Made by a program: the position numbers and the translations under genes. A stretch of DNA of 32,303 nucleotides from an uncultured Pelagibacteraceae bacterium (GTDB lineage Bacteria > Pseudomonadota > Alphaproteobacteria > Pelagibacterales > Pelagibacteraceae), in assembly GCA_902632665.1 (NCBI GenBank), contig CACPDT010000007.1:1-32303 (forward strand), in the 5' to 3' direction. A model generated the notes under the pieces. That model ran no database searches. It was not told the origin of the DNA and was given only the letters and a program-made list of their open reading frames with translations. This document shows, piece by piece, positions 780-31,439 of the stretch (its first letter is position 1; each line of letters starts with the position of its first letter).

Positions 780-803
780 ATCTTTTCTCTTTCTAATTTT
801 ATT

Positions 804-2273: not shown

Positions 2274-2338
2274 GTTTCCCCTCTAAATGTTTAAGTCAAA
2301 AAGGTAACTGAAAACTATTCGTCTGTCTACTTAGATAA

Positions 2339-3664: not shown

Positions 3665-3754
3665 ATTCCAATCTTTATTTTTCGTGTAACTTAAATATAT
3701 AATTTTTTATATATATAAAAAATATAAGTATTAAATATATTAAATGATTTTGCC

Positions 3755-4105
3755 CTAGAAACTTAAATTTTTTAATGTCTCTAAGTATTCATTAAATTCT
3801 GCAATGAATGATTTGCTAGGTTTAATAAATTTTTTTCTTTGATCATTAGGCGCCTTTTCTAAAAAAAAAAATCCTTTTTCACAAGCTTCATTGATCATTA
3901 AAGCTGACTTTGGTCTAGATGTTTTAAATAATCTAGTTTTTAATTCTTCAACAGTTAAATGCTCGCTATTTTTAAAAGCGTTCATAACTAATAACATCAT
4001 ATGGTAATGTGAAGGAGATTTTCTAAAAAAATAATTGCTAGAAGTATGAGATAGTTTTACTTGGTCTTCCCAGAATTCTAGCAAATCTTTGGTGGTTTTT
4101 GCCAT
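3755..4105 (-). CDS. MarR-like winged-helix transcriptional regulator
   Basis: 116 aa; reads as a wHTH: HLTVEELKTRLFKTSRPKSALMINEACEKGFFFLEKAPNDQRKKFIKPSKSFIAEFNEYL. Overlaps the tdm stop by 1 bp, so probably cotranscribed. Confidence 0.6.
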   Translation of the reverse strand: MAKTTKDLLEFWEDQVKLSHTSSNYFFRKSPSHYHMMLLVMNAFKNSEHLTVEELKTRLFKTSRPKSALMINEACEKGFFFLEKAPNDQRKKFIKPSKSFIAEFNEYLETLKNLSF

Positions 4106-6444: not shown

Positions 6445-6481
6445 TTTTAATTACCTTTTATACTATAAAAATATCTAACTG

Positions 6482-6535
6482 TTGACTATCATTTTACTTA
6501 AGCACATACTAAGGAACTTAATATTAAGAAAGGGG
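6482..6535 (+). promoter_or_regulatory. Putative promoter and RBS for the tmoX-like gene
   Basis: TTGACT (6482-6487), 17-bp spacer, CATACT (6505-6510); AAGGGG Shine-Dalgarno-like stretch just before ATG at 6541. By-eye match only. Confidence 0.45.
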
Positions 6536-6540
6536 AATAA

Positions 6541-7485: not shown

Positions 7486-7508
7486 GGCTTGAAGCAACTA
7501 AATCTTTA

Positions 7509-7544
7509 AATCTCTCCCAACATTGTTGGGGGAGATTTTTTTTT
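7509..7544 (+). terminator. Intrinsic terminator/attenuator after tmoX
   Basis: AATCTCTCCCAAC-ATT-GTTGGGGGAGATT (13-bp arms with one G-T type mismatch) followed by a T tract. Confidence 0.85.
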
Positions 7545-7557
7545 AAGTACAAATTAA

Positions 7558-8019
7558 ATGATTAAATATTTTTTAAGTATATTAATTAGTCTATTATTTT
7601 TTAATCAATCTTTTGGCAAAGATGTAAGTATAAGTGAAAATATTGATCTTGAGTTTGCTTGTGATTTAGAAAAAAAAATAATTAAAAATTCAGAATATAA
7701 TTATCAAACCTTTTTAGCTAAAGATTTAAATGAGAAAGGTTTAGATAAGTTTAAAATTTTATCTAAAAAACCAGAAACACTTTCGATTAAAGGATTATCA
7801 TTATTTCTTTCAGATTCAGCAAAACTTAACGTTAAAGTGGTCAATAAGGATGTAGTTTTATTTAAGTCAATTGATCAAAAAAAAAATTATTCTGAGTCTG
7901 GTATTATTACCAGAAAAACAGGTGAATTAATTCATGAAATAACAAAAAATATAAAAAGTGAAAACTCTGAAAAATATATTTCTATTTATTCATGTAATAA
8001 AGAGGACAAAAAAGTATAA
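7558..8019 (+). CDS. Hypothetical exported protein
   Basis: 153 aa with signal-peptide-like N-terminus MIKYFLSILISLLFFNQSFG; no family recognised. Confidence 0.7.
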   Translation: MIKYFLSILISLLFFNQSFGKDVSISENIDLEFACDLEKKIIKNSEYNYQTFLAKDLNEKGLDKFKILSKKPETLSIKGLSLFLSDSAKLNVKVVNKDVVLFKSIDQKKNYSESGIITRKTGELIHEITKNIKSENSEKYISIYSCNKEDKKV

Positions 8020-8053
8020 TTTTTTTTTAATCAATTTTGTGTAAAATAATATT

Positions 8054-8431
8054 ATGAAAAAATATCTATATATTATTATTTTAAGCTTTCTTATTAGTTC
8101 AGTTGCGCTAGCGCGAAGCACAGGATGTAAAGAAGGAAACTGTGAAAATGGTTTTGGAAAATGGGTTTATACTGACAAGACTACTTATGAAGGTGAGTGG
8201 GTAGGCACTAAGAAAAATGGTCAAGGAGTTGAAACTTGGCCCAATGGATACATCTATAAAGGTGAGTTTAAAAATAGTGAATGGAGTGGAGAAGGTGTTC
8301 TGACTTTTCCGGACGGCTCAACTTATGATGGGGAATGGGCAAAAGGATTTATGAATGGTAAAGGTACTTTTACCTCATCAGACGGAACCCAAAAATCTGG
8401 AATATGGAAAAATGGAAAGTTACAAGAGTAA
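8054..8431 (+). CDS. Exported MORN-repeat protein
   Basis: 125 aa; signal peptide MKKYLYIIILSFLISSVALA, then MORN repeats YEGEWVGTKKNGQGVETWPNG / YKGEFKNSEWSGEGVLTFPDG / YDGEWAKGFMNGKGTFTSSDG. Confidence 0.85.
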   Translation: MKKYLYIIILSFLISSVALARSTGCKEGNCENGFGKWVYTDKTTYEGEWVGTKKNGQGVETWPNGYIYKGEFKNSEWSGEGVLTFPDGSTYDGEWAKGFMNGKGTFTSSDGTQKSGIWKNGKLQE

Positions 8432-8983
8432 ATGTTAAAAGAAAATTTTTTTAATAGAATAAAATATTTGCCTGAGACTACAAAGCAGTTTGGTGGTTTG
8501 TTACTAATTATTCTAATTATATTATCCTCTTTTTTTGCTTTAAACATAATGTTTGGAGGTGGTGATGAACTTGTTAGAAAAATGAAACTAGAGGAGGAAA
8601 GAATTGCGAAAGAAAAGAAATTGAGTGAATTAATATCTAAACTACCTTCGGGTATATTAGTAACTTTTGATGGCACAGATCATTACAAACTAACAGATGA
8701 AGTTTACGAACAAGTTTGTAAAGCGACAAAATTAATTCCACAACGTGCAATTATGGGGGCAAATTTTTTAAATTATAGAGCACATGAAATTTACACAATT
8801 AATGGTAATAAAATTGATGAAACATTTGTTAAGTGGGATGAGGAAAAAAATAAGTGTTTTGCTGGGTTTACGGTAAGTGGGAATAATGTTGGAGTTGACG
8901 AGTCAATTAATGTTAGTGGCGAGGCGTTAAGTTTTTTAAGTACAGGAATTGATACAAGAGTTTATTATATTAAAAATTTTTAA
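8432..8983 (+). CDS. Hypothetical membrane-anchored protein
   Basis: 183 aa; one N-terminal TM segment (FGGLLLIILIILSSFFALNIMFGG). Starts directly after the MORN gene stop. Confidence 0.7.
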   Translation: MLKENFFNRIKYLPETTKQFGGLLLIILIILSSFFALNIMFGGGDELVRKMKLEEERIAKEKKLSELISKLPSGILVTFDGTDHYKLTDEVYEQVCKATKLIPQRAIMGANFLNYRAHEIYTINGNKIDETFVKWDEEKNKCFAGFTVSGNNVGVDESINVSGEALSFLSTGIDTRVYYIKNF

Positions 8984-9046
8984 GGAGAAAGTAACAATAT
9001 TATGGATTTAATTTTATCTTAATTTCATATAACTTATTTAGTATTT

Positions 9047-10075
9047 ATGTCTGATCCAGTAATCAAATGTGAAAATGTTTATAAAATTTTTGGAGCAAAT
9101 GCTCAAAAGATGCTTCAAGACTCAAATGGTAATGTTGACGCTAAAACTTTTCAAGATAATGGCTGTATCGTTGGTGTAAATAATGCTTCCTTTGAAGTTT
9201 CTAAAGGAGAGATGTTAGTTGTTATGGGCTTATCAGGCTCAGGGAAATCAACTTTATTAAGATGTATTTCACGATTAACAGATGCAACAGGTGGAAAAAT
9301 TTTTATAGAAGGCCAGGATCTTTTACAATTAAATAATAAAGACTTAATCAATCTTAGAAGAAATAAAATGGGAATGGTTTTTCAAAGCTTTGCATTACTT
9401 CCACATAAAACTGTTGTTGAAAATATAGCTTTTCCACTTCAAATTAAAGGTGTTAAGACTGAAGACAGTATTAGTAAAGCAATGGATATGGTTAAACTAG
9501 TTGGTCTTGATGGCAGGGAAAACTATTTTCCAAGAGAACTTTCAGGAGGACAGCAACAAAGAGTAGGTATTGCAAGGTCTCTAGCAGTTGAGCCTGATAT
9601 TTGGTTTCTAGATGAACCTTTTTCAGCTTTGGATCCATTAATTAGAAAAGAGATGCAGGATGAGTTTTTAAGACTTCAAGAAAAATTACAAAAAACAATT
9701 ATGTTTATCACTCATGATTTTGATGAAGCCCTAAAACTTGCTGATCGTATTGCAATTATGAAGGATGGTATAATTGAACAACTAGATACACCTGCCAATA
9801 TTGTTTTAAACCCAGCTACAGAATATGTCAGAAAATTTACTGAAGAAGTACCAAGAGAAAAAGTTTTATTAATTAAAGATGTCATGGAGATATCTAAAGA
9901 TAACTTAGGTGATTTAAAAGTTTCAAAAGATGAAATTATAGAAAATGTTGCTGAAAAAATTCTCACTCAAGAAAAATCAGTAGCTGTAATAGATGATAAC
10001 GATCAAATTGTGGGTTCTATCAATCCAACTAAAATAATTAATACAGTTTTTGGGGGAAGAAAGAATAATAATTGA
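9047..10075 (+). CDS. ABC transporter ATP-binding protein (ProV/OpuAA type), TMAO transporter ATPase
   Basis: 342 aa; Walker A GLSGSGKST, signature LSGGQQQRVGIARSL, Walker B IWFLDEP, C-terminal CBS-like region. Subunit letter (tmoV/tmoW) left unassigned. Confidence 0.88.
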   Translation: MSDPVIKCENVYKIFGANAQKMLQDSNGNVDAKTFQDNGCIVGVNNASFEVSKGEMLVVMGLSGSGKSTLLRCISRLTDATGGKIFIEGQDLLQLNNKDLINLRRNKMGMVFQSFALLPHKTVVENIAFPLQIKGVKTEDSISKAMDMVKLVGLDGRENYFPRELSGGQQQRVGIARSLAVEPDIWFLDEPFSALDPLIRKEMQDEFLRLQEKLQKTIMFITHDFDEALKLADRIAIMKDGIIEQLDTPANIVLNPATEYVRKFTEEVPREKVLLIKDVMEISKDNLGDLKVSKDEIIENVAEKILTQEKSVAVIDDNDQIVGSINPTKIINTVFGGRKNNN

Positions 10076-10077
10076 TT

Positions 10078-12231
10078 ATGGAACTTTTAAAAAAATATCC
10101 AAAAACATTTCAGTGGTTATTTTTATTAGTCGTATTTTTTGCTTTATGTTTCGCAATTGAAGTTCCAGAAACGTACAAATTCATTCGTGGTCAAGCAGAA
10201 TTTGTAAAAGATCCAAATCAAAGTAGCTATATCTTTTTAGGCAAAGAGGTGAGATATTATGCTTTTGATGTCTTTTGGAGACTGCCACCATTACTTGGAT
10301 GGTTGCCTATTTGGATTAATGACTCATTATTTTTCTTAATGAACGAATGGATGCCGATTGAAGTTTGGAATGAAGATACGCAAGAATTTAAAAGTCGCCC
10401 GATAGTTTTACAAATAAGCAGAAATTTGACTGCCTTCATGACTTTTTTGATAGAACTAATAAGAGAGATTTTATTAGGCGGTCTTGAGACTATAGTTGCA
10501 TTTACTAGTTGGGATTGGATAGATAAAAATCCATGGGCTGAATTACCAGGATTACCTTGGACTATCGTTGCAGCAGGTGCAGCGCTACTTTCATACAAGC
10601 TAAGCGGCAAAGGTCTAGCTTTGTTTGCAGGTTTAACAATGATTTATATTTCTGTATTTGGTCAATGGAAACCTTCTATGCAAACTCTCTCATTTATTTT
10701 AGTTGCAGCTCCACTATCGTTTATTTTTGGTTTAGGATTGGGAATAGCAGCTTTTAAAAGTAAACGTGTAGAAAAAGCTTTATATCCAATATTACTGGTA
10801 ATGCAGACAATGCCACAATACGCTGTATTGGTACCAGCGTTGGTTCTTTTTGGAGTAGGTGATCATGCTGCAGTAATTATTACTATGGTTGTAGCAATAC
10901 CACCGATGATATTATTGACATTACTAGGTTTAAGAGCAGTGCCTCCAGAGGTTATTGAAGCGGGTAGAATGAGTGGATGTAATAATTTTCAATTAATGTT
11001 TAAAGTATTAATTCCAACTGCAAGAAGAGATATTTTAATTGGGGTAAATCAAGTCATCATGGTGTGTTTTTCGATGGCAGTAATTTCAGCATTTATTGGA
11101 GCAAAAGGTTTAGGATTCAATTTATTATTAGCACTAAACCAACTAAACATTGGATTGGCCTTAGAGGCAGGCTTATGTATTAGTTTAATTGCAATTCTTT
11201 TAGATAAGATGTCTTTGGCATGGGCTAATAAACAAACGGATTATTTTGGTAATCTTACCTTTTATCAAAGAAACAAAAATTTTTTATTTTTTGGTATTAT
11301 ATTTGTTATTGGAATAGTACTCGCTTATGTTGGAACTTTTTTATTTAAAGATACTTTTAATTATTTATTTGAAATTCCACATAATAAAGGAATATCAACT
11401 GCTGATTTTTGGAATAAAGGAGTAGATTGGATTTTTGAGACTTTCTTTGTATATATCAAAGCGTTTAATACATGGTTGATACAGGATGTGCTTCAGCCAA
11501 TGAGAGCACTTTATCTAAGAATGCCTGCAATAGCTACAATAGTTTTGGTTGTTGGTGCAGGGTATCTGATTGGTGGCTTACGTTCAGCGTTGATAGTGTG
11601 TCTTTTAACTTTATTTATCGCATTTAGCCCTTGGTGGGATAGAGCTTTGGTCACAACATATATGGCAACTTTCGGAGTTATAGTTTCTTGTTTGATTGGG
11701 TTTACTGTTGGAACTTTATGTTTTCAAAATAAACATTCAGCAAACTTTATGTTAGGTGTTTGTGATATTTTTCAAACATTCCCATCTTTTGTCTATTTAA
11801 TTCCAGTGATGATGTTGTTCGGTATTACTGATACGTCTGTGCTTATAGCAGTTATAGTTTATGCGACAATACCGGCTACAAGATATACAATTGAGGGACT
11901 AAGAAGTGTTCCAGCTGGACTACATGATGCAGCAACTATGTCAGGTGTAAATAAATTTCAAAGACTAACTAAAATAGAATTTCCTTTGGCTTTTCCACAT
12001 ATGATGCTTGGTATAAATCAGACAATTGTATTTGCTTTGTTTATGGTGATCATAGGAGCATTTATTGGAACAGAAGATTTGGGTCAATACATTTTAAAAG
12101 CATTATCAGATAAAAAAGGTGCTGGAATTGGATTAACGCTTGGCATCTGCGTAGCTTTTATTGCTTTAATATTTGATAACTTAATTAGAGCTTATGTTCA
12201 AAAAAGAAAAAAACACCTGGGTATTGATTAA
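10078..12231 (+). CDS. ABC transporter permease with two fused binding-protein-dependent transport domains (TMAO transporter permease)
   Basis: ~717 aa. Two EAA-like loops: PPEVIEAGRMSGCNNFQLMFKVLIPTA and PAGLHDAATMSGVNKFQRLTKIEFPLA. The ORF track starts at TTG 10072; ATG at 10078, just after the ATPase stop, is the more conservative start. Confidence 0.88.
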   Translation: MELLKKYPKTFQWLFLLVVFFALCFAIEVPETYKFIRGQAEFVKDPNQSSYIFLGKEVRYYAFDVFWRLPPLLGWLPIWINDSLFFLMNEWMPIEVWNEDTQEFKSRPIVLQISRNLTAFMTFLIELIREILLGGLETIVAFTSWDWIDKNPWAELPGLPWTIVAAGAALLSYKLSGKGLALFAGLTMIYISVFGQWKPSMQTLSFILVAAPLSFIFGLGLGIAAFKSKRVEKALYPILLVMQTMPQYAVLVPALVLFGVGDHAAVIITMVVAIPPMILLTLLGLRAVPPEVIEAGRMSGCNNFQLMFKVLIPTARRDILIGVNQVIMVCFSMAVISAFIGAKGLGFNLLLALNQLNIGLALEAGLCISLIAILLDKMSLAWANKQTDYFGNLTFYQRNKNFLFFGIIFVIGIVLAYVGTFLFKDTFNYLFEIPHNKGISTADFWNKGVDWIFETFFVYIKAFNTWLIQDVLQPMRALYLRMPAIATIVLVVGAGYLIGGLRSALIVCLLTLFIAFSPWWDRALVTTYMATFGVIVSCLIGFTVGTLCFQNKHSANFMLGVCDIFQTFPSFVYLIPVMMLFGITDTSVLIAVIVYATIPATRYTIEGLRSVPAGLHDAATMSGVNKFQRLTKIEFPLAFPHMMLGINQTIVFALFMVIIGAFIGTEDLGQYILKALSDKKGAGIGLTLGICVAFIALIFDNLIRAYVQKRKKHLGID

Positions 12232-12238
12232 TTTAAGT

Positions 12239-13570
12239 TTATTTATCTAAAAAAGATTTTGAAGAGTCATCCATAGCAGTTGCCCATGGAGTATGATGTA
12301 TTGGAGCAATGGAACCAGTTACAGGTGATGAAAAAGATTTATTTCTGTAAGTTGAAATATCCTCAACTTTGTGATGTTCCCACTCCTTAAAGTGTTTTCT
12401 AATTAACTCAAAATCAATTTTTGGATAATCAGACATTTCATGAAGCTCTTTTGTATACTCAGTTTGAAAATCAATCATTTGATCAGGATTTTCTAGTTTT
12501 TCTTCCATTGCGACCCACTTATCAATATCTTTTTTAACTTCACTATCATTAGGTATTTTAATCTTATTCATAATCACATCTCTTGCGTACCAAGCTTGGC
12601 AATCAAACATATTAAACGTATGGAATTGATCTTGCATTCCAAGATATAAAAGTTTGTGATTATCTTGCCAAACTACTCCTTTAAATAATTTTGGTGGATA
12701 CAACCTATTTCTAGTTTTTAATTGTAAATTCTCTTCTAAAAAAGGAAAATGGTGCAGATAACCAGTGCATAAAATTACAACATCAGCTTCTTGTTCAGTT
12801 CCATCTTTAAATATTGCTTTTTTTCCAACTAATTTATCTAGATAATGAACTTCTTTCATACCCTCGGGCCATTTAAATCCCATCGGATTATGTCTGTAAC
12901 CAATGGTAACACTCTTGGCTCCGTATTTATTACACTGAAGAGCAATATCCTCTGCTGAATAGCTACTACCTAGCACTATAACATTTTTATCTCTAAATTC
13001 CTCTGCATCTCTAAAATCATGTGAGTGCATAATTCTTCCTGGAAAAGAACTCATTCCCTCATACTCTGGAATAAATGGAACCGAAAAATGACCCGTAGAA
13101 ACTACTACATAATCAAAGTTATCTTTTAAAATTTTATTATTAACTTTATCTTGATAACTCAGCTCAAACTTATCGTCTTTAAAAATTGTATTAACAACTC
13201 TAGTATTAAATTTAATCTTATTTTTTAAATTTCCCTTACTTACTCTCCCAACAATATAATCAAATAAAACTTCTCTAGGTGGAAAAGATGGTATCGGTTT
13301 TCCAAAATGTTCATCAAAGGAGTAATCTGCAAATTCTAAACATTCTTTTGGCCCATTGGACCAAAGATATCTGTACATACTATTTGGAACTGGATCACCA
13401 TACTGATCAGAACCTGTTCTCCAACTATAATTCCATAATCCTCCCCAAGTTTCTTGTTTCTCAAAACAAACCACCTCAGGTATTTTTTCACCATTTTTTT
13501 CTGCTAGTTCAAAGGCTCTCAACATTGATAAGCCACAAGGTCCTGCACCAATAATCGCTACTTTTGACAT
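12239..13570 (-). CDS. tmm: Trimethylamine monooxygenase-type flavin-containing monooxygenase
   Basis: 443 aa; FAD motif AIIGAGPCGLS, FMO fingerprint FPGRIMHSHDFRD, NADPH motif VIVLGSSYSAEDIALQ. Located with TMAO uptake and demethylation genes. Confidence 0.85.
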   Translation of the reverse strand: MSKVAIIGAGPCGLSMLRAFELAEKNGEKIPEVVCFEKQETWGGLWNYSWRTGSDQYGDPVPNSMYRYLWSNGPKECLEFADYSFDEHFGKPIPSFPPREVLFDYIVGRVSKGNLKNKIKFNTRVVNTIFKDDKFELSYQDKVNNKILKDNFDYVVVSTGHFSVPFIPEYEGMSSFPGRIMHSHDFRDAEEFRDKNVIVLGSSYSAEDIALQCNKYGAKSVTIGYRHNPMGFKWPEGMKEVHYLDKLVGKKAIFKDGTEQEADVVILCTGYLHHFPFLEENLQLKTRNRLYPPKLFKGVVWQDNHKLLYLGMQDQFHTFNMFDCQAWYARDVIMNKIKIPNDSEVKKDIDKWVAMEEKLENPDQMIDFQTEYTKELHEMSDYPKIDFELIRKHFKEWEHHKVEDISTYRNKSFSSPVTGSIAPIHHTPWATAMDDSSKSFLDK

Positions 13571-15777: not shown

Positions 15778-16556
15778 AAAAAATACTTATAGTCGAGGGA
15801 AATCCCAGAAAAGAGAATGAGAGTTTTCAAAAAGTAGGAATACAAACACACACTGAAAGTTTAAAAGATAGCCTCAATTATTTTGTAGAGGAATTAAAAT
15901 TGGATGTAGTAAATCCATCATCTGATGAGAGTATCGAGTCAGTGAAAAGTAATCTTTCAAATTATGATGGATTAATTTGGGGTGGTAGTAGTCTAAATAT
16001 TTATAATAACACCCCTGAAATAAGAAAACAGATTGAATTCATGAAAGAATGTCAAAAAAAAGTTGTAAATATTTTAGCAATATGTTGGGGTATGCAGGTA
16101 GCCGTAACTGCTGCCGGAGGAGAAGTAAAAAAAGCAGATAATTCACATATTGGTATAGCTAATGAAATTATAATTAATGAGATTGGTCAAGATCACCCGC
16201 TTTATCAAAAAAAAGATAAAAAATTCAATTCACCTGCTTTTAATTTTGATGAAGTCAAAATACTCCCGAAAAATGCAATCTGTTTAGCGTCAAATAAAAT
16301 AAATAAAGTTCAAAGTTTATATTTTGAAACAAATGAAAGTAAAGTTTGGGGTTTACAATATCACCCTGAGATAACTTATGAGAAAATGATAAGTTTAATT
16401 AAATTTAGAAAAGATAGATTAATAAATTTAAGAAAAGTTTTTAAAGATGAAAAAGATATTGAAAATCATATATCTTTTATCAAAAAAGAAATTTTAGTCA
16501 CAAACAAAGATAAAAGAATGATGGAGTTAAAAAACTGGTTAAAGAGTCTAAATTAA
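15774..16556 (+). CDS. Stand-alone class I glutamine amidotransferase (GuaA-type GATase) domain protein
   Basis: 260 aa; Cys nucleophile elbow [11 protein letters not shown] and catalytic His/Glu WGLQYHPEI. Starts with a 4-bp overlap with the Fe-ADH stop. Confidence 0.85.
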
Positions 16557-18238
16557 AATAAGCCTTCTATTTCGCCTTTTTTGTTTAGTTTAATAGAGTC
16601 AGCTGCTGGCACTCTTGGCAAGCCCGGCATTGTCATGATTGCTCCACAAACCACAACTATGAATTCAGCACCAGACGATAATCTTATTTCTCTTATTGGT
16701 AATGCATGACCAGTTGGTGCACCTTTTAAATTGGGATCTGTTGAAAAACTATATTGAGTTTTTGCAACACAAATAGGTAATTCTCCATATCCAGATTCTT
16801 CAAAACTTTTGAGTTGTTCTCTAATTTTTGTGTCAGCTATAACTTCATCAGCTCTGTAAATTTCTTTTGCGATTGTTTCAATTTTTTTAAATAGAGGCGT
16901 TTTACTTTCATATAAGAATTTAAAATTAGCCTCATTTTTTTCACATAACTCAGTAACATGACTTGCTAATTCTTTCGTACCTTCACCTCCATTAGCCCAA
17001 TGTTTACAAAGACTTGCTTTTACCCCAAGCTTTTCACAAAACTCTATTAATTCTTTTACCTCTTTATCAGTATCTTTTATGAAATGATTTACAGCTATTG
17101 CAACTGGTAATCCAAACTTTTTTACATTTTCAATATGTCTTTGAAGATTAATCAATCCTTTTTTTAAAGCATCAACATTTTCATTTTTTAAATCATCTTT
17201 TGCAACTCCACCATGCATTTTTAATGCTCTAATAGTAGCAACAATCACAACGCAACTTGGTTTTAAATTTGATTTTCTACATTTAATATCAAGAAACTTT
17301 TCTGCACCAAGATCAGCACCAAAACCAGCTTCAGTCACAACATAATCTGCGAGTTTTAATCCAGCTTTAGTTGCAATAACAGAATTACATCCATGAGCGA
17401 TATTAGCGAATGGTCCCCCATGTATTATTGCAGGATTGTTCTCTAATGTTTGGGTCACATTAGGTCTTAAAGCTTCTTTTAACAGAACAGTCATAGGACC
17501 TTGTGCTTTTAAATCTTTTGCGTGAATAGGTTTTTTCTCTCTTGTATAAGCTATCGTTATATTTCCTATTCTTTTTTCTAAGTCTTCAAGATTATTTGCA
17601 AGACAAAAGATAGCCATAATTTCTGAAGCAACTGTAATATCAAAACCATCTTCTCTTGGAAAACCGTTTGCTACGCCACCAAGATTAATGTTAATTGATC
17701 TAAGAGCTCTATCATTCATATCCATTACTCTTTTCCAAACAATTCTTCTTACATCTATGTTCAATTTATTCCCCCAGTAGATATGATTGTCTATTAGTGC
17801 TGATAAAAGATTATGAGCAGATGTTATTGCGTGAAAATCACCTGTAAAATGAAGATTGATTTGTTCCATTGGCACAACTTGTGCATATCCACCACCTGCC
17901 GCACCACCTTTCATCCCAAAAGAAGGACCAAGACTTGGTTCTCTTAGGCAAACAATAGATTTTTTACCTATTTTATTTAATCCATCATTTAAACCTACTG
18001 ACGTAGTTGTTTTACCTTCCCCTGCTGGAGTAGGGGTAATAGCTGTTACTAAGATTAACTTTCCATCAGGTTTGTCTTTTAATTTTTCCAAATACTCCAG
18101 GTTTACTTTAGCAATATGTCTCCCCATCGGACTAAAGGCTGAGCTTTCATCTGGGACATTTACTTTAGCTAAAATATCCTTAATTGGTTGCATTTTAGCT
18201 TCTCTTGCTATTTGGATATCTGATTTTATGTCGCTCAT
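16553..18238 (-). CDS. fhs: Formate--tetrahydrofolate ligase
   Basis: 561 aa; [19 protein letters not shown]-loop, [76 protein letters not shown]; near full-length Fhs. Confidence 0.97.
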
Positions 18239-18362: not shown

Positions 18363-19619
18363 ATGCAAAAATATTCAGTTTTTAGTTTAATCAAAAATGC
18401 ACTTTCAAATCACGAGAATTGGGATTTAGCTTGGAAAGACCCAACACCTAAAAAGGAGTATGATGTAGTGATTATTGGCGGTGGAGGCCATGGTCTAGCA
18501 ACAGCATATTATTTGGCGAAAGAGCACAACATAACCAATGTGGCTATCATAGAAAAAGGTTGGATTGGTGGAGGAAACGTTGGACGTAATACTACGATTA
18601 TAAGATCAAATTATATGTATGATGAAAATGCTTTATTTAGTGAATTTGGCATGAATCTATGGAGAAAGATGAGCCAAGATTTAAACTACAACGTAATGTT
18701 TTCTCCTAGAGGAATCATAAACCTCGCTCACTCTGACGCACAAATGAATGTTTATGCCAGAAGAGGTAATTCCATGCGTTTAAATGGAATAGATGCCGTT
18801 CTTTTAAATAGAGAACAAGTAAAGGAAATTATTCCAATGGCTGATTTTTCTGAAAATGTAAGATTTCCAATTTTTGGTGGATTAATGCAGCCTAGTGCAG
18901 GTACGGCTAGACATGATGCAGTAGCGTGGGGTTATGCGCGTCAGGCAGACTCAATGGGCGTAGATATAATACAAAACTGCGAAGTAATTGGTTTTGATAT
19001 TTCTGCAGGTAAAGTTAATGGGATTAGAACGTCAAGAGGAGAAATAAAAGCAAAAAAAATTGGACTATGTGTTGCAGGAAGCACAAATATTTTGGCTGAA
19101 AAATTAAATATGACTTTGCCAATTGAAACACATTTATTACAAGCTTGTGTATCTGAACCAGTAAAACCAGTTTTAGATAATGTGGTTACTTTTGGTGCTG
19201 GACATTTTTATATAAGTCAATCAGATAAAGGTGAAATGGTTATGGGAGGTGATTTAGATGGTTATAATAGTTACGCCCAACGAGGTAATTTACCGACACT
19301 TCAGCATGTACTTACAGAAGGAATTGCCATGATGCCATTTTTAAGTAAATTAAAAATGTTAAGAACATGGGGTGGTATAATGGATATGTCCATGGATGGC
19401 TCACCAATTATTGATAAAACACACATTGAAGGTTTGTATTTAAATTGTGGATGGTGTTACGGAGGATTTAAAGCTACACCTGCATCTGGTTGGACTTTTG
19501 CTCATACAATTGCGCAAGATAGAGTTCATGAATTGAATGCTGGATATAGTTTAAATAGATTTAATACAGGTCATTTGCTAGACGAAAAAGGGCTTGGAAC
19601 AAAAACTTGGATTTCATAA
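18363..19619 (+). CDS. soxB: Heterotetrameric sarcosine oxidase beta subunit / N-methylglutamate dehydrogenase subunit A-like
   Basis: 418 aa; YDVVIIGGGGHGLATAYYLAKEHNITNVAIIEKGWIGGGNVGRNTTIIRSNY is a SoxB signature; followed by D-A-G type subunits. Confidence 0.88.
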   Translation: MQKYSVFSLIKNALSNHENWDLAWKDPTPKKEYDVVIIGGGGHGLATAYYLAKEHNITNVAIIEKGWIGGGNVGRNTTIIRSNYMYDENALFSEFGMNLWRKMSQDLNYNVMFSPRGIINLAHSDAQMNVYARRGNSMRLNGIDAVLLNREQVKEIIPMADFSENVRFPIFGGLMQPSAGTARHDAVAWGYARQADSMGVDIIQNCEVIGFDISAGKVNGIRTSRGEIKAKKIGLCVAGSTNILAEKLNMTLPIETHLLQACVSEPVKPVLDNVVTFGAGHFYISQSDKGEMVMGGDLDGYNSYAQRGNLPTLQHVLTEGIAMMPFLSKLKMLRTWGGIMDMSMDGSPIIDKTHIEGLYLNCGWCYGGFKATPASGWTFAHTIAQDRVHELNAGYSLNRFNTGHLLDEKGLGTKTWIS

Positions 19620-19889
19620 ATGCTTCATATCAAGTGTCCACATTGTGGAATGAGATCACAAAATGAATTTTCCTATGGAGGAGATGCTAGTGTTAAAAGA
19701 CCTGAACTAGGAAAAGATATATCAGATCAAGATTGGAATAATTTTGTTTACAACAGAAAAAGCTTGAGAGGAAAGCATTGGGAGCTATGGCAACATTTGG
19801 CGGGATGTCGACAATGGATTAAAGTTGAGAGAGATACCGGCTCTCATGAAATCTTTAAAACTTTAAAAGCCGAAGAAGAAATTTCATAA
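19620..19889 (+). CDS. soxD: Sarcosine oxidase delta subunit / MgdB-like
   Basis: 89 aa; IKCPHCGMRSQNEFSYGGDA zinc-binding start typical of SoxD; overlaps soxA by 1 bp. Confidence 0.92.
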   Translation: MLHIKCPHCGMRSQNEFSYGGDASVKRPELGKDISDQDWNNFVYNRKSLRGKHWELWQHLAGCRQWIKVERDTGSHEIFKTLKAEEEIS

Positions 19890-22885
19890 TGACACAAAGT
19901 TTTCGATTAAAGGATGTTGGCTTAATTAACAGAAATAAAAAACTTTCATTTAAATTTAATGGTAAAAAATATTATGGCTATGAGGGTGATAGTCTTGCCT
20001 CAGCACTGATTGCAAATGGTGTTCATTTAATTGGAAGAAGTTTTAAATATCATAGACCCAGAGGTTTTTTTGGAGCGGGAGTTGATGAACCTTATGCAAT
20101 TGTACAATTGTATAGAAATGGTGAGACAGAACCCAATATTAAGGCGACTGAGCAAGAGCTTTTTGACGGGTTAGAAGCAAAAAGTGTAAATTGTTGGCCA
20201 AGTGTAAATTTTGATATTGGTGCAATAAATAATTTTTTGAGAATATTTCTTCCAGCAGGATTTTATTACAAAACATTTATGTGGCCAAAAAGTTTTTGGT
20301 ATAAAATTTATGAACCATTCATCAGAAAAGCTGCAGGACTGGGAACAGCTTCGATAAAACATGATAAAGAGAGATATGAGCATAAATACGAGTATTGTGA
20401 CTTATTAATTGCAGGCTCTGGCCCATCAGGTTTGGCTAGCGCTTATGCTGCAGCTAAAAATGGAGCAAGAGTGATTTTAGCAGAGGACAAATCAAGATTT
20501 GGTGGAACTTTATTAACTAGTGAAGTGAACATAGGAAATAAATCAGGTAAGGAGTGGGCAGATGGTATTATTTCTGAATTGAAAGAAATGCCTAATGTGA
20601 CTGTAAAAAATAGATCTCAAGTTTTTGGTTACTATGATCATAATATGTTGGTTATGTCTGAGAGAGTTAGTGACCATTTACCTAAAACAAAAGAATTTCA
20701 TCCGAAGCAAAGACTTTGGTACATAAGAGCTAAAGAAGTTCTAATTTCATCAGGATCAATTGAAAGACCTATTGTGTTTGGAAATAATGATACTCCGGGA
20801 GTAATGCTCTCATCGGCTGCAAAAGAGTATATGAAAGTTTATGGTGTTTTGGTTGGAAAAAATCCACTTATATTTACTAATAATGATAGTGGGTATGAGA
20901 CAGCTATTGAATTTAAAAAGAATGGTGTTGATCCATTAATTTTAGATACCAGAAGTAATCCAAACTCAGAAATTATTAATGAAGCAAAAGATTTAAATGT
21001 TAAAATAAAAAATTCTTATGTAGTAGTAGCTGCTCAAGGATATAAAAAAGTAAAATCAGCAGATATCGCTAAAATTTCAGAGGATAAAGAACAACTTGGA
21101 ACTATTGAAAATGTAAAATGTGACTGCATTTGTGTTTCTGGATTTTGGACACCTACAATACATTTAGCTTCACAATCAGGAAACAAAACAAAATTTAATG
21201 AGGAGATCGATGCCTTTGTTCCAAGAAAATCAAAACAAAATGAAAAAACACTTGGTGCAGCAAATGGTATTTATACGTTAGAAGAAACTTTAAAAGATTC
21301 ATTTGAAGCTGGACATGAGGTATCAAAGAAAATTACCAACAATGAAAATAGAGTTTCCTTTCCTAATGTTGTAGAAAAAAAATCCTCTATTCATGATAAG
21401 TTTTGGTGTGTACCACTGCCCAAGGGAAAAAATTATAAGAGATTTTTAGATTTTCAAAATGATGTAGCGGTCTCTGACATTGAGATAGCTTTAAGAGAAG
21501 GTTATCGATCAATTGAACATGTTAAAAGATATACTACTCTTGGGATGGCAACTGATCAGGGTAAAACGAGCAATCTAAATGGTTTACAGTTAGTATCTAA
21601 AATAGAAAATAAAGTTGTACCGGCAGTTGGGCATACAACTTTTAGACCACCTTATACACCAGTTTCAATTGGTGCAATAGTTGGTAGAGAAGTTGGCAAA
21701 CATTCAAAGCCTACTAGAAAATCTCCAATGCACTCATGGCATGAAAAAAATAATGCGGTATTTGTTGATGCTGGAGTTTGGTTAAGACCAAGATATTACA
21801 AACGTGGGAATGAAGATTTATTTGAGGCATCAAAAAGAGAAGCAAAAAATGTAAGAACAAATGTTGGAGTTTGTGACGTTACTACATTAGGCAAAATAGA
21901 TATTAAAGGACCAGATGCAGCAGAACTATTAAATAGAGTTTATACCAACGCTTGGTTAAAACTACCAGTTGGTAAAGCTCGATATGGTGTGATGTTAAGA
22001 GAAGATGGTATTGTAATGGATGATGGAACTACAACAAGAATATCAGAAAACCATTACCACATGACAACCACGACTGCACAAGCTGCAAATGTTCTTTCAC
22101 ATTTAGAATATTATTTGCAATTAGTTTGGCCAGAGTTAAATGTTAACGTAGTTTCTAGCACTGAACAATGGGCTGGAGCTGCAATAGCTGGTCCAAAATC
22201 TAGAAATTTATTGCAAAAATTATTCCCTAATTCTGATGTGTCAAATGAAGGACTTCCTTTCATGGGTTACATGGAAGGAGATTTATTTGGTGTCAAAGCA
22301 AGAATTTTTAGAATTTCATTCTCAGGTGAACTTGCCTATGAGGTTAATGTTGAATCTAATAATGGTAATTTCATGTGGGAAAAAATTATCGAAGTTGGTG
22401 AACAATTTAAGATACAACCTTATGGAACAGAGGCTTTATCAACACTTAGAATTGAAATGGGCCATGTAGCTGGTTCAGAACTTGATGGTAGAACAATACC
22501 TTATGATAATTCCTTAGAGGGATTATTAAGTAAGAAAAAAGATTTTATTGGAAAAAGATCTTTATCTAGAAAAGCTTTCATAGCTGAAGATAGACAAAAA
22601 GTTGTTGGTGTTGTTCCGCTAGATAAAAAAACTAGCATACCGGAAGGTTCTCACTTAGTTAAGGACTCAAAAGCACCGTCACCTAATCCTAAATTAGGTT
22701 ATATTTCAGCTTCATGCTGGAGCGTCGAATATGATAATCCATTTTCTCTAGCTATTCTAAAGGATGGAAAAAATATGATTGGAGAAAAATTATTTGTAAT
22801 GTCTCCACTTAAAAACAAAATAATACCAGTTGAAATAGTCTCCTCACATTATGTTGATCCAAAAGGTGAAAGAGTGAGATCATGA
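19889..22885 (+). CDS. soxA: Sarcosine oxidase alpha subunit / MgdC-like
   Basis: 998 aa; N-terminal 2Fe-2S-like domain (FKFNGKKYYGYEGDSLASALIANGVHLIGRSFKYHRPRG), FAD domain (DLLIAGSGPSGLASAYAAAKNGARVILAE), C-terminal GcvT domain. Confidence 0.93.
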   Translation: MTQSFRLKDVGLINRNKKLSFKFNGKKYYGYEGDSLASALIANGVHLIGRSFKYHRPRGFFGAGVDEPYAIVQLYRNGETEPNIKATEQELFDGLEAKSVNCWPSVNFDIGAINNFLRIFLPAGFYYKTFMWPKSFWYKIYEPFIRKAAGLGTASIKHDKERYEHKYEYCDLLIAGSGPSGLASAYAAAKNGARVILAEDKSRFGGTLLTSEVNIGNKSGKEWADGIISELKEMPNVTVKNRSQVFGYYDHNMLVMSERVSDHLPKTKEFHPKQRLWYIRAKEVLISSGSIERPIVFGNNDTPGVMLSSAAKEYMKVYGVLVGKNPLIFTNNDSGYETAIEFKKNGVDPLILDTRSNPNSEIINEAKDLNVKIKNSYVVVAAQGYKKVKSADIAKISEDKEQLGTIENVKCDCICVSGFWTPTIHLASQSGNKTKFNEEIDAFVPRKSKQNEKTLGAANGIYTLEETLKDSFEAGHEVSKKITNNENRVSFPNVVEKKSSIHDKFWCVPLPKGKNYKRFLDFQNDVAVSDIEIALREGYRSIEHVKRYTTLGMATDQGKTSNLNGLQLVSKIENKVVPAVGHTTFRPPYTPVSIGAIVGREVGKHSKPTRKSPMHSWHEKNNAVFVDAGVWLRPRYYKRGNEDLFEASKREAKNVRTNVGVCDVTTLGKIDIKGPDAAELLNRVYTNAWLKLPVGKARYGVMLREDGIVMDDGTTTRISENHYHMTTTTAQAANVLSHLEYYLQLVWPELNVNVVSSTEQWAGAAIAGPKSRNLLQKLFPNSDVSNEGLPFMGYMEGDLFGVKARIFRISFSGELAYEVNVESNNGNFMWEKIIEVGEQFKIQPYGTEALSTLRIEMGHVAGSELDGRTIPYDNSLEGLLSKKKDFIGKRSLSRKAFIAEDRQKVVGVVPLDKKTSIPEGSHLVKDSKAPSPNPKLGYISASCWSVEYDNPFSLAILKDGKNMIGEKLFVMSPLKNKIIPVEIVSSHYVDPKGERVRS

Positions 22886-23469
22886 GTTCAATATCAGCAT
22901 TATCCAATGTTCATTCTACGGGTCATTTTGGTGATCATGCTAATAAAAATGAAGATGAACTTTTGAAAATTTCTGAGTTAAAAAATTTATCAATTGTTCA
23001 AATAGTTCAATATAAAAATTCAAAGATAAATTTTGAAAGTATCAATATAAATCAACTTAAACTAAAAAATGATCCATTAAATGTAGTGAATAATAATGAT
23101 ACAAGAATTTTGTGGAGCGGTCCAAAAAATTGGCTTTTGGTATCAGAAAAAAAAGAGGTTATTAAAGATATTAACACTGAATTTAAAGATACCGATTTTG
23201 CAGTCACAGATTTATCACATTCAAGAGCAGTGATACAAATTGAAGGCCGAGATGTAAAAGAAGTATTAAAAAAAGGCTGTCCCTTTAATTTTAATGATTT
23301 AAAGAAAAATAATTCAATCAATTCCTCATTTCACAATATAGCATTTACTGTGGACATGATAGATACAAATCCAGACAAAATAAGATTGTTTGCGCTAAGG
23401 AGTTTTGGTGAGTCTCTTTATCATTCAATTACTGATGCATCTTTAGAGTTTGGCTATATAGCAAGATAA
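22882..23469 (+). CDS. soxG: Sarcosine oxidase gamma subunit / MgdD-like
   Basis: 195 aa, 4-bp overlap with soxA; LWSGPKNWLLVS, AVTDLSHSRAVIQIEGRDVKEVLKKGCPFNF typical of SoxG. Confidence 0.9.
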   Translation: MSSISALSNVHSTGHFGDHANKNEDELLKISELKNLSIVQIVQYKNSKINFESININQLKLKNDPLNVVNNNDTRILWSGPKNWLLVSEKKEVIKDINTEFKDTDFAVTDLSHSRAVIQIEGRDVKEVLKKGCPFNFNDLKKNNSINSSFHNIAFTVDMIDTNPDKIRLFALRSFGESLYHSITDASLEFGYIAR

Positions 23470-24341: not shown

Positions 24342-24752
24342 TTAATCTATAATATTAAGTATTATTAATTTATTTTGTTTTGTCTCTTTACACCATAATT
24401 CATAACTTTCACACATTCTCCATAAATGATCGAAGGCTCTTTGAGAAATCTCAAGAGGATAATGGCTCTTTGCGTAATATAATTCAGGATATTGAATTAA
24501 CTGCTTAACTGACAAATCTTTTTGAATATGAAGTAATCTTAGAGTTTCATCAGGCACCTTTTTTTTTGACACTTTATCAATTAATTCATCATGGAATTTT
24601 CCACTGCTTATTTCATTGTAGGTTGTTGATCCAATAAAATTTTCTATTGCATTGATTGTTGTGAGCTCAGGATTTTTCTTCTTTATCTCACAAATTTTTG
24701 AGTAAATTGCCTCTGCAACCAGTAACACATAAGGCTTTTCTTTAGAGGGCAT
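24342..24752 (-). CDS. Hypothetical protein
   Basis: 136-aa ORF overlapping the racemase-like gene by 1 bp; no family recognised. Confidence 0.6.
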   Translation of the reverse strand: MPSKEKPYVLLVAEAIYSKICEIKKKNPELTTINAIENFIGSTTYNEISSGKFHDELIDKVSKKKVPDETLRLLHIQKDLSVKQLIQYPELYYAKSHYPLEISQRAFDHLWRMCESYELWCKETKQNKLIILNIID

Positions 24753-25501
24753 TATCTATTTTGGTATTTCTTCATAGCAGCGTAAGCTAAAATCAAATTT
24801 GGGTCTAAAAATATTTTTGATGATTTAATTGTCTTAAATGATTTATAGGCAAAAATAGCAATAGGGAGCTCAGTACAACCAAGAATAATTTTTTTACACT
24901 TTTTTTTGATTAAATAATTTATTGCTGGTTTTATCGCATTACTTGCCAATTTTACTTTTCCCATTTTTACAAGTTTAATAGCTTTGTTTACGGACTTACT
25001 TTGAATAGAATTATTAGGAAACACTAAATTATAATCTCTATCAAAAAACTTGTTATAAACACCTGTCTTTAAAGTTCCTTCTGTAGCAAGTAAACCAATA
25101 GAAGAATGTTTTCTACATTTTTTTTTAGCATGGATAAAAACTTCTTTAGGCATATTTACTATTGGCAAGTTAATTCGTTTTTTTAAGTCATTATACCAAT
25201 AATGGGCTGTATTACATGGTATAACTATAAATTTACAATTACTTTTTTTTAAAAGATTGCAACCATAAATTAAACTTTTTAAAACAGATAAATATTTTTG
25301 CTTAGTTTTTTTATTACTAATTTTATTTGATAGCTTGCCAGTATGGATACCAATTGACTCAGGCCTACCAGGAATATTTGATTTATTATAAAGCATAAAC
25401 AGAGGGTAATCTTGATCGATCTTACCTCTATATAAAATTGCAAGTTTATTACAAAAATCTAAACCTGCCTGGGTACCCATTCCACCTAAAATGCCAATCA
25501 T
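24752..25501 (-). CDS. Aspartate/glutamate racemase family protein
   Basis: 249 aa; IGILGGMGTQAGLDF start, both catalytic Cys contexts: VIPCNTAHYW and IILGCTELPIA. Confidence 0.9.
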   Translation of the reverse strand: MIGILGGMGTQAGLDFCNKLAILYRGKIDQDYPLFMLYNKSNIPGRPESIGIHTGKLSNKISNKKTKQKYLSVLKSLIYGCNLLKKSNCKFIVIPCNTAHYWYNDLKKRINLPIVNMPKEVFIHAKKKCRKHSSIGLLATEGTLKTGVYNKFFDRDYNLVFPNNSIQSKSVNKAIKLVKMGKVKLASNAIKPAINYLIKKKCKKIILGCTELPIAIFAYKSFKTIKSSKIFLDPNLILAYAAMKKYQNR

Positions 25502-28043: not shown

Positions 28044-29009
28044 ATGAAATTTAAAATCGATAATCTTCAATATTGTAAATGGACAAGAAAAGTTTTTGAG
28101 ATAAATCGTGAGGCAGGCCTAGACGCAGTTCATGTTACAATTGTTTATCATGAGGACTTTGATGAACTTCAAAATGAAATTAAAAAATGGCAAACTTTAT
28201 TAAAAGAAAATTCGGATTTAATTTTTTTAGGTCAAAGTTTTAAGGATATTGAAAAAGCAAACAATGAGAATAAAACAGCAATTTTTTTTGGTTTTCAAAA
28301 TTGCTCTCCAATAGAAGATGATATTAATTTAGTTGAAAAAGTTCATATTCTTGGATGTAGATTTATGCAGCTCACTTATAATAATCAATCATTGTTAGCG
28401 ACAGGTTGTTATGAGAAAAATGATAGCGGGGTAACTAATTTTGGACGGGAAGTTATTAGAGAAATGAATAGAGTGGGTATTGTAGTGGACATGTCTCATT
28501 CAGCAGAAAAAAGTACTTTTGATGCAATAGAATTCAGTGAAAAACCAATAGCAATCACTCATGCAAACCCATCCTTTTGGCATGCAGCAAAAAGAAACAA
28601 ATCTTCTGAGTTATTAAAAACTTTAAGTGATAGTGGTGGAATTTTAGGTTTATCTCTCTATCCACATCATCTTAAAGACAATACAAATTGTTCTCTAGAA
28701 AGCTTTTGTGAAATGGTGGCTAAAACAGCAGAAATAATGGATATTAATAATATTGGTATAGGATCAGATCTTTGTTTAAATCAACCAGATGAGGTAGTTG
28801 AATGGATGAGAAATGGAACCTGGTCAAAAAATAAAAATTATGGCGAGGGTTCCAAAAATAAACCAGGATTTCCTAAACAACCTAATTGGTTTGAAGATGC
28901 GAGAGGTTTTAAAAACTTAGAGGTAGGTTTAAAAAAGATTGGTTTTTCAGAAACTGAGACTAATGGAATACTAGGAAACAATTGGTATAACTTTTATAAG
29001 ACTATTTAG
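28044..29009 (+). CDS. Membrane dipeptidase (peptidase M19 / amidohydrolase fold)-like protein with atypical metal-site residues
   Basis: 321 aa; GCRFMQLTYNNQSLLATGCYE, VGIVVDMSHSAEKSTFDAIEFSEKPIAITHANPS, IGIGSDLC align with M19 regions. In-frame TAA 9-7 bp upstream of the ATG excludes an N-terminal extension. Confidence 0.8.
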   Translation: MKFKIDNLQYCKWTRKVFEINREAGLDAVHVTIVYHEDFDELQNEIKKWQTLLKENSDLIFLGQSFKDIEKANNENKTAIFFGFQNCSPIEDDINLVEKVHILGCRFMQLTYNNQSLLATGCYEKNDSGVTNFGREVIREMNRVGIVVDMSHSAEKSTFDAIEFSEKPIAITHANPSFWHAAKRNKSSELLKTLSDSGGILGLSLYPHHLKDNTNCSLESFCEMVAKTAEIMDINNIGIGSDLCLNQPDEVVEWMRNGTWSKNKNYGEGSKNKPGFPKQPNWFEDARGFKNLEVGLKKIGFSETETNGILGNNWYNFYKTI

Positions 29010-29011
29010 AT

Positions 29012-30667
29012 ATGAATGTTGAATTAAGAGATCCTAATATCATAATGAAGTTATCAAGACTTGGTTCTTTCCATCAATCAAGATTATCTTTTTTACGAAG
29101 TTTTTTAAGTGAATTTAAAGATTGGCAATATAGTAGAGATCTATTTAATTTAGACCATGAGGGTTATGGCACAGCAGTATACTCATTTAAAAAAAAAGAC
29201 AGGGTTTATTCTTTAATTTGTTATGCGAACAAAATTAATGATAATGAAAGATCAGATAGGGTAATAGCAACTAAGTGGGATGCAGCTTTTACATTACATG
29301 ATGGAGTACCTTTAAAAGATGATGTTGAAAGATTAAGAAATGAAGTTCCAAAACAAGAAGTTGGTAGATTATCTTACAAAGAATTAACATTATCTAGAGC
29401 AAACAAATCTGTAAGGGTATTTGATCATGTTGTTGAAAGTTTAAGTAATGGAAACCAACCTGATTTAAAGCTTCTTGAAAAAGTTGGATATTTATACAGA
29501 ACTACAGCAGTTTATGGGTCAGGTAAGTTTGGTTTAGCAGATCGATTTAGAATTAAAAATAGAGAGGAAATTAATGGACCATTTAGATTAGAGATGATGT
29601 TAGTTTATTTAGTCAGACAATTTACATTTGATCAAGTTAATCATGTTGCAAAAAATAGAAATCCCAACTTAGCTGTTAAATTAGATCCGAAAATTTGTAG
29701 AAACTTGGGGATAGGAAATTCCACTGGATTAGGAATGGCACCATTTATAGTTAATCATCCAACTTTATTAAATAATTGGATACTTAGTAGAGAAATTGCA
29801 CTAAAAAAAATAAGAGAAATTAAAATCGTAAAAATACAAGATAAAGATTTATTCAAAGATTGTGTGAAAAGTTCTCTCAAAAATATTACTAGCTGGAATA
29901 CAGAGAGTGAATATCAACTCAAAAAAATTAAACTTTTGCTAAAAGATATCAAAAAATTTATCAATTTCTTGGAAAACGAATTTGATTTTCAAAAAAATTA
30001 TCCTTTTAATGAAATTTATCTTTGGCTAGAGAAAGAAACTTGTGAGGAGTGTATTGAATATGTAGTCTCAATCATGATGGAGCCTTTTAGTGATATAGTT
30101 CAGCCATTAGTTGGGCAAATGAGTTCTGAGGAAGAAAAATATTTTAATATCCCAACTGAGCGTAATGTCGGAGATTTAAAAAAGATTTTAGAAAATAAAT
30201 ACTCAGATATTTTAAAGATTAATTTTAAAACACAAGAAAGTAATCATAAATTTTGGTTTATTTCAAAAAATAAAGAAGAGCCAAGATTAGCAAATCGTTT
30301 TGAAGAAAATGGTGCAGATTTAGAACAACCCCTGGCAATAGCTAGAGATATAAAAAAATTGTATGAGAGATTGTTGTCATTAAAAGATAATTTAAAAATT
30401 AATCAATTTTTAATTGATAATTCTGATTTAAGACATGTTGTTAGAAGAGCCTTTGTTATTGAAAAATTTCCATATTCAGAAATACAAGATAATACTATTG
30501 GAGAAAATTTAGTTCCAATTGATATGTTGCGATTAAAGTTATCTTTTTTTGGAGCTTTAAAATTTGATCCAAGATCTGACAAGTGGTTGAGAATATGTAT
30601 GTTTCAAGGTGCGCCACTCCCAAATGAATTAAAAGATTATGATGAGCAATGGGTTTATAAAACCTAA
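29012..30667 (+). CDS. Conserved-looking hypothetical protein of unknown family
   Basis: 551-aa uninterrupted ORF, 2 bp after the M19-like gene stop; distinctive blocks YRTTAVYGSGKFGLADRFRI and GIGNSTGLGMAPFIVNHPTLLNNW. Confidence 0.8.
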   Translation: MNVELRDPNIIMKLSRLGSFHQSRLSFLRSFLSEFKDWQYSRDLFNLDHEGYGTAVYSFKKKDRVYSLICYANKINDNERSDRVIATKWDAAFTLHDGVPLKDDVERLRNEVPKQEVGRLSYKELTLSRANKSVRVFDHVVESLSNGNQPDLKLLEKVGYLYRTTAVYGSGKFGLADRFRIKNREEINGPFRLEMMLVYLVRQFTFDQVNHVAKNRNPNLAVKLDPKICRNLGIGNSTGLGMAPFIVNHPTLLNNWILSREIALKKIREIKIVKIQDKDLFKDCVKSSLKNITSWNTESEYQLKKIKLLLKDIKKFINFLENEFDFQKNYPFNEIYLWLEKETCEECIEYVVSIMMEPFSDIVQPLVGQMSSEEEKYFNIPTERNVGDLKKILENKYSDILKINFKTQESNHKFWFISKNKEEPRLANRFEENGADLEQPLAIARDIKKLYERLLSLKDNLKINQFLIDNSDLRHVVRRAFVIEKFPYSEIQDNTIGENLVPIDMLRLKLSFFGALKFDPRSDKWLRICMFQGAPLPNELKDYDEQWVYKT

Positions 30668-30676
30668 TCTTAAACT

Positions 30677-31288
30677 ATGAAATCCTTAAGTGAGATAGAA
30701 ACTACAGCTAAGAGGGCAAGTCGAGCTGTTGGTTATTCATGGGGTATAGCAGAGGAAGTTGGGAAATCTATAAGATTATCCGAATTATTTGGTTTTCCAG
30801 CGATCAAACATCTTAATCAATATTATCAAAATAAAAAAAAAGAAAATTTTGAAGAGATAAAACTAATTAATAAGATTAACAAATCAGATAGATCATCTTT
30901 TTGTCCAATTATGTTCGGTGTTAATTTCATTGATCAAGTAAAAAACCTTGAAAATTTAAAAAAGTGCTCAGTTGAAAATCTCGCTTATCCATTGTTACTT
31001 TTACCTTTTTTAAGTAGAGCTTCAGAAATTAATGGAAAAAAATTATTAATTTTATTTGATGATTGTAAATTTTTATTGAATTTTAATGTGACTATCTCAT
31101 CTAATATCTTGGATAAAGAAATGCCAATGTTAGCAAAAAAAGTAGAAATAAGTTTTTTAGACAATGAAGATAACTTTTCCGATCAAGATTGGAAAAATCT
31201 TTATAAACTTGCAGAGGATACATTTGTAGAGGAGACTGATAGTTTAAAAGAGGGTGCAGCGGGAGCTGGTTTGACTGATAATGACTGA
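30677..31288 (+). CDS. DUF3726-like protein
   Basis: 203 aa; MKSLSEIETTAKRASRAVGYSWGIAEEVGKSIRLSELFGFPAIKHL resembles DUF3726 proteins from memory; 9 bp after the 551-aa gene. Confidence 0.6.
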   Translation: MKSLSEIETTAKRASRAVGYSWGIAEEVGKSIRLSELFGFPAIKHLNQYYQNKKKENFEEIKLINKINKSDRSSFCPIMFGVNFIDQVKNLENLKKCSVENLAYPLLLLPFLSRASEINGKKLLILFDDCKFLLNFNVTISSNILDKEMPMLAKKVEISFLDNEDNFSDQDWKNLYKLAEDTFVEETDSLKEGAAGAGLTDND

Positions 31289-31439
31289 GGATAAAGAAAT
31301 AGAAAAAAATCTTAAAGATTTAGATGATATTTGCGATGAATGTAAAGAACAGGATGAAAGTGTTTCTCAAAATTTAATTTTAACTGGTTTTAAAATTTGT
31401 AAGTCTTGCAGGGTTTCAAAAACAATTTTTCCAATCTAA
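31281..31439 (+). CDS. 52-aa double-CxxC (zinc-ribbon-like) microprotein
   Basis: MTEDKEIEKNLKDLDDICDECKEQDESVSQNLILTGFKICKSCRVSKTIFPI*; 8-bp overlap with the preceding stop (ATGACTGA). Absent from the ORF track, whose shortest entry is 60 aa. Confidence 0.7.
   Translation: MTEDKEIEKNLKDLDDICDECKEQDESVSQNLILTGFKICKSCRVSKTIFPI

Follow-up and report, generated by a model that had tools for sequence, protein, structure and literature searches.

Here, we find that three adjacent genes of a Pelagibacteraceae (SAR11) contig, which encode an M19-like protein, a 551-aa protein of a new family and a DUF3726 protein, are the functional unit of a cassette previously read as comprising four genes. We consider it fairly probable that the products of this trio form a catabolic module leading from an imported N-methylated solute of betaine type towards N-methylglutamate; homarine (N-methylpicolinate) is the most likely substrate. 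The window, i.e., the whole stretch of 32,303 nucleotides that was analysed, has its close matches in single-cell and metagenome-assembled Pelagibacteraceae genomes. SAR11 bacteria are the most abundant heterotrophs in the ocean, and the flow of carbon and nitrogen through the sea is shaped by the N-containing solutes that they take from algae.

A three-gene unit and a resident 52-aa gene

Four open reading frames described in an earlier note were re-found on the forward strand at the same positions and with the same spacing. They encode the M19-like protein (28044 to 29009, 321 aa), the 551-aa protein (29012 to 30667), the DUF3726 protein (30677 to 31288, 203 aa) and a 52-aa double-CxxC protein (31281 to 31439), and their first two spacers measure 2 and 9 bp, whereas the last two genes overlap by 8 bp. 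Near-constant spacing of the four genes across some 80 SAR11 loci, together with low dN/dS values against nine close relatives (about 0.02-0.07 for the M19-like gene, 0.05-0.10 for the 551-aa gene, 0.10-0.19 for the DUF3726 gene and 0.02-0.10 for the 52-aa gene), indicates that all four are genuine genes. The earlier proposal of an enzyme module, transcribed as one and centred on a large protein outside the known families, is supported for three of the four genes.

The distribution of the three genes across genomes is tightly linked. Among 385 alphaproteobacterial genomes, the 551-aa gene is present in 53 and the DUF3726 gene in 43, all of them among those 53; in 43/43 cases the latter lies directly downstream of the former on the same strand. 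The 551-aa and M19 genes occur in an identical set of 26 of the 41 related genomes. None of 14 well-known control genomes encodes DUF3726, and a phylum-wide sample contains the 551-aa family in 22 of 299 genomes. A search of viral contigs for relatives yielded none.

The 52-aa gene behaves differently from the trio. In the genomes searched, it occurs solely in the genus of the window, and no cassette outside this genus was found to carry it. At an empty site (L219) of genome G016, purE, the 52-aa gene and a YIP1-like gene follow one another in order and no remnants of the M19, 551-aa or DUF3726 genes are left; soxBDAG-type genes are also missing from this region of G016. The empty site shows joint gain or loss of the three genes and identifies the CxxC gene as a resident of the locus that stands outside the module. 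Its earlier assignment as a fourth, metal-binding member, for which the 8-bp overlap and the strong conservation within the genus speak, is therefore not supported: a module including the 52-aa gene is contradicted by L219, and a metal-carrier role of its product within such a module is highly improbable, given that the gene is missing from cassettes beyond the genus and present without a cassette. The 52-aa protein itself retains all four cysteines in 84/84 distinct sequences, with an invariant core CDEC...SVSQNLILTGFKICKSCRVSKTIFPI, and its gene is conserved genus-wide between purE or the cassette on one side and the YIP1-like gene on the other.

Features of the encoded proteins

The M19-like protein matches PF01244 (Peptidase_M19, 7e-70) over residues 16-318 and its nearest solved chain is PDB 2i5g, annotated as 'amidohydrolase' (1e-56). 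The previous M19 assignment is confirmed, and the fold is that of the amidohydrolases. The metal site, however, is divergent. Canonical M19 enzymes bind their binuclear zinc centre through an HxD motif, a bridging Glu and two His. Alignment against GliJ and further dipeptidases of the M19 family places Gln (Q85) at the position of the bridging Glu in 146/146 family members; the N-terminal HxD is missing, with D-x-L-Q in its place, while H152, H173 and D242 are invariant in the same 146 sequences. Loss of both the bridging Glu and the HxD makes it unlikely that the protein functions as a classical binuclear dipeptidase.

The 551-aa protein was previously described as a large novel protein, and this description is borne out by the profile and structure searches: nothing significant was found in Pfam, NCBIfam or PDB, profile search included. 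Across 47 diverse members, with identities down to 22%, the family has 30 invariant columns, many of them Arg and Gly. No Cys or His is invariant among these members, which argues against a protein-bound metal. An AlphaFold (AF2) model built from 62 SAR11 sequences reached a pLDDT of 68, with low confidence precisely in the conserved loops, and no fold was obtained; a Foldseek search with this low-confidence model returned nothing significant (best E 0.14).

For the DUF3726 protein, the family assignment was confirmed (PF12525, 8e-21, 74.2 bits vs. a gathering cut-off of 22.1) and could be refined by AlphaFold modelling and profile comparison to a probably diverged, shortened Ldh_2 (type-2 malate/lactate dehydrogenase) fold. 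The AF2 model has a pLDDT of 84, and the top 21 Foldseek matches are all of Ldh_2 type, with probabilities of 0.87-1.00 and modest TM scores (0.36-0.52) and E values (5e-3 or weaker). Alignment of the DUF3726 and Ldh_2 profiles with hhalign (P 4e-4) covers the N-terminal 60 columns alone, and members from Vibrio and Sinorhizobium give weak Pfam Ldh_2 matches. The family further has a conserved Gly/Ala-rich C-terminal tail. A literature search on DUF3726 and the SAR11 locus tags found no papers. The Ldh_2 family includes delta1-piperideine-2-carboxylate reductase.

It is tempting, if tentative, to propose that the 551-aa and DUF3726 proteins constitute a new class of enzyme with no recognisable flavin-, metal- or Rossmann-type site, whose reaction would be the opening of an N-methylpyridinium (or similar N-heterocyclic) ring. 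DUF3726 would then be a repurposed dehydrogenase fragment serving as partner subunit; the family would span Alpha-, Beta- and Gammaproteobacteria and include a deeper clade with other substrates.

Gene neighbourhoods and the probable link to N-methylglutamate dehydrogenase

Gene-neighbourhood analysis of 551-aa homologs across Alphaproteobacteria, as proposed in the earlier note, showed that the trio is co-conserved far beyond close relatives, among bacteria of the sea and of soils, contrary to what the note had named as grounds for rejecting the cassette. In Phaeobacter, Aliiroseovarius, Sulfitobacter, Shinella, Aminobacter and Pararhizobium, the three genes lie inside an operon-like run composed of a LysR regulator, an aldehyde dehydrogenase, M19, 551-aa, DUF3726 and often an Ldh-family oxidoreductase; a BCCT or glycine-betaine-type ABC transporter is usually present as well. 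In Phaeobacter inhibens DSM 17395, the 551-aa homologue is WP_014881811.1 and the DUF3726 protein is WP_014881812.1. Unannotated records of Vibrio campbellii and Caballeronia contain a similar series of LysR, aldehyde dehydrogenase, M19, BCCT transporter, 551-aa and DUF3726 genes. Among 55 neighbourhoods of the 551-aa gene, some of which are short or from related strains so that the counts are not independent, M19 is nearby in 50 and Ldh_2 in 24; 21 contain an aldehyde dehydrogenase and 19 contain BCCT or ProX/ProV transporters. The aldehyde dehydrogenase of Rhodobacterales scores best, below the cut-off, against 2,5-dioxovalerate (2-oxoglutarate semialdehyde) dehydrogenases.

Within SAR11, the surroundings differ. 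In a sister family the trio is convergent with an aldehyde dehydrogenase, joined by Ldh_2 in one genus (g3), and a PotABCD-like transporter adjoins; in one genome of this family (G038) the cassette is divergent from a soxBDAG/Mgd-type operon. At three loci of the sister family, the cassette comes with an aspartyl/asparaginyl beta-hydroxylase-like gene (PF05118). No aldehyde dehydrogenase, Ldh_2 or regulator adjoins the cassette in the window's genus, where candidates for the two dehydrogenase partners are just paralogues of 31-38% identity that lie in unrelated places and also occur in cassette-less genomes.

The window also carries, 5 kb upstream of the cassette, a soxBDAG-type operon (18363 to 23469, forward strand; recognised by soxB, soxA and soxG models), which follows fhs for formate-tetrahydrofolate ligase (16553 to 18238, reverse strand; PRK13505, 2e-277). 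SAR11 bacteria have two soxA paralogues; a 2011 study proposed that one operon is sarcosine oxidase and the other N-methylglutamate dehydrogenase (Mgd), but left open which is which (PMC3160333). In a SoxA tree including the solved sarcosine oxidase 2gag, 2gag and the second SAR11 paralogue are separated with 100/100 support from the window paralogue and six cassette-adjacent copies. An earlier tree without 2gag agrees, with 6/6 cassette-adjacent copies on the window's side; three of the six come from close relatives, so that the independent evidence amounts to about four cases. The split makes the window operon the better Mgd candidate and ties the cassette to Mgd rather than to sarcosine oxidase. 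By this phylogeny, the window operon is probably mgdABCD, which also suggests that SAR11 soxB2D2A2G2 (SAR11_1281-1284, PMC3160333), matched by its position beside fhs, encodes N-methylglutamate dehydrogenase. The linkage is not strict: genus g2 of SAR11 family f2 has the cassette without Mgd-type SoxA, with the other SoxA paralogue at most, and Mgd-type SoxA occurs without the cassette in some SAR11 genomes, e.g., the incomplete G001 and G006.

Other parts of the window were also annotated. Positions 3-13570 correspond to the SAR11 methylamine/TMAO region, with the start of a glutamine-amidotransferase-type gene, a glutamine synthetase III-like gene, a DAO oxidoreductase, a DUF1989-GcvT (tdm-like) gene, a betaine/TMAO-type ABC transporter and trimethylamine monooxygenase (tmm). 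Three ORFs at 7558-8983, one with MORN repeats and two lacking a Pfam match, interrupt the gene set of the betaine-type ABC transporter between the substrate-binding protein and the ATPase/permease. An aspartate/glutamate racemase-family protein is encoded at 24752-25501; its closest match is the cysteate racemase CuyB, at 144 bits and thus below the cut-off of 190.

Homarine as the most likely substrate

Three features together, namely the link to Mgd, the transporters for betaines and the set of oxidoreductases, suggest an N-methylated substrate that enters as a betaine and leaves as N-methylglutamate; the N-containing osmolyte context proposed in the earlier note is in line with these neighbours. 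Ferrer-Gonzalez et al. reportedly describe a homarine operon, homABCDER, of five genes and a regulator that is said to occur in SAR11, SAR116 and Rhodobacterales and to lead to N-methylglutamate and glutamate. LysR and five structural genes are found together in Rhodobacterales and Rhizobiales loci, and the window has three of these genes together and no regulator. Matched by gene context and not gene by gene, the cassette is probably part of the published homarine operon. The 2026 study (Ferrer-Gonzalez et al., Nat Microbiol 11:1531; PMC13390433) is reported to describe homarine catabolism as a conserved bacterial pathway with Mgd among its enzymes. Homarine is an abundant algal solute that is quickly taken up by Ruegeria pomeroyi (PMC12817926). 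The earlier expectation of an undescribed system has become doubtful, as the homarine pathway very likely covers these genes. The 551-aa family is without known relatives.

Catabolism could follow a chemically consistent route. After import of the N-methylated, betaine-like substrate, for which homarine is the best candidate, the N-methylpyridinium ring might be activated and opened between C5 and C6 by the 551-aa protein with DUF3726 as partner. The M19 protein may then hydrolyse an amide or imine intermediate, e.g., by N-formyl removal, with C6 leaving as formate, which could be taken up through the fhs of the window. Oxidation of the C5 aldehyde by the aldehyde dehydrogenase would give the N-methylimine of 2-oxoglutarate, and the Ldh_2 enzyme would reduce this to N-methylglutamate. 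Demethylation to glutamate would be catalysed by Mgd, with tetrahydrofolate enzymes completing the route.

A rather less probable reading, which we nevertheless take seriously, is that the same kind of catabolic module, also with Mgd-type demethylation downstream, serves another N-methylated or betaine-type solute such as proline betaine, another pyridine betaine or clade-specific substrates. Because the transporters are not the same in all cassettes (BCCT, ProXWV, PotABCD-like), different clades may use different substrates. A deep clade including Sinorhizobium and Alloyangia (24-27% identity) keeps 551-aa, DUF3726-like and M19 genes with an IclR regulator and a polyamine-type or other ABC transporter instead; in three loci from Sinorhizobium, Alloyangia and another alphaproteobacterium the order is IclR, 551-aa, DUF3726-like, M19 and a PotABCD-type transporter, which suggests a different substrate there. 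A cassette member adjoins DMSP genes in Phaeobacter, and an M19-type dipeptidase gene (pepD) precedes the dimethylglycine catabolic genes of Vibrio and Pseudomonas (PMC12093977). However, the association of the cassette with the Mgd clade and not with sarcosine oxidase fits the homarine report, as does its occurrence in SAR11 and Rhodobacterales.

Two further readings seem to us far less plausible. Location in the SAR11 methylamine region, where the window carries tmm, tdm, the betaine/TMAO-type transporter and the glutamine synthetase III-type gene, led us to consider the cassette as an accessory to trimethylamine/TMAO use. This is improbable: at other loci, a LysR, dehydrogenases and transporters of its own go with the cassette, methylamine genes were not seen nearby in the 55 neighbourhoods, and the incomplete genomes noted above have Mgd-type SoxA without it. 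Even less credible is a unit for the hydrolysis of peptides or cell-wall dipeptides with a true M19 dipeptidase at its centre, since its one point of support, membership of the M19 family, is countered by the altered metal ligands shared by all members and by oxidoreductases and betaine transporters as neighbours.

The three-gene module provides a compact genetic marker for the proposed use of N-containing algal solutes and helps to assign which SAR11 'sarcosine oxidase' operon is Mgd (PMC3160333). It also ties two families, 551-aa and DUF3726, to one probable pathway and points to unrecognised ring-opening or amide chemistry, and their roles merit structural or biochemical study.

The cassette resembles several known systems in part. 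Its M19-like protein shares the fold family of the membrane and renal dipeptidases, GliJ and 2i5g and keeps two His and one Asp, but has Gln for the bridging Glu, no HxD and a gene context of small-molecule catabolism. The predicted structure of DUF3726 probably resembles that of the Ldh_2 family (PF02615), to which its profile aligns over the N-terminal 60 columns, whereas its length of about 200 aa vs. 330 leaves out much of the enzyme, the Foldseek E value is only 5e-3 and a separate full-length Ldh_2 is often encoded in the same operon. The window operon at 18363-23469 shares the architecture of mgdABCD and heterotetrameric soxBDAG and is a candidate for the next step, but lies outside the three-gene module and is missing from some cassette-bearing SAR11 genomes. 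In comparison with the reported homABCDER, just three of the five genes are clustered in the window, where no regulator adjoins, while the cassette as a whole agrees with that operon in occurring in SAR11 and Rhodobacterales, in comprising five genes and a regulator in Rhodobacterales, and in its link to Mgd.
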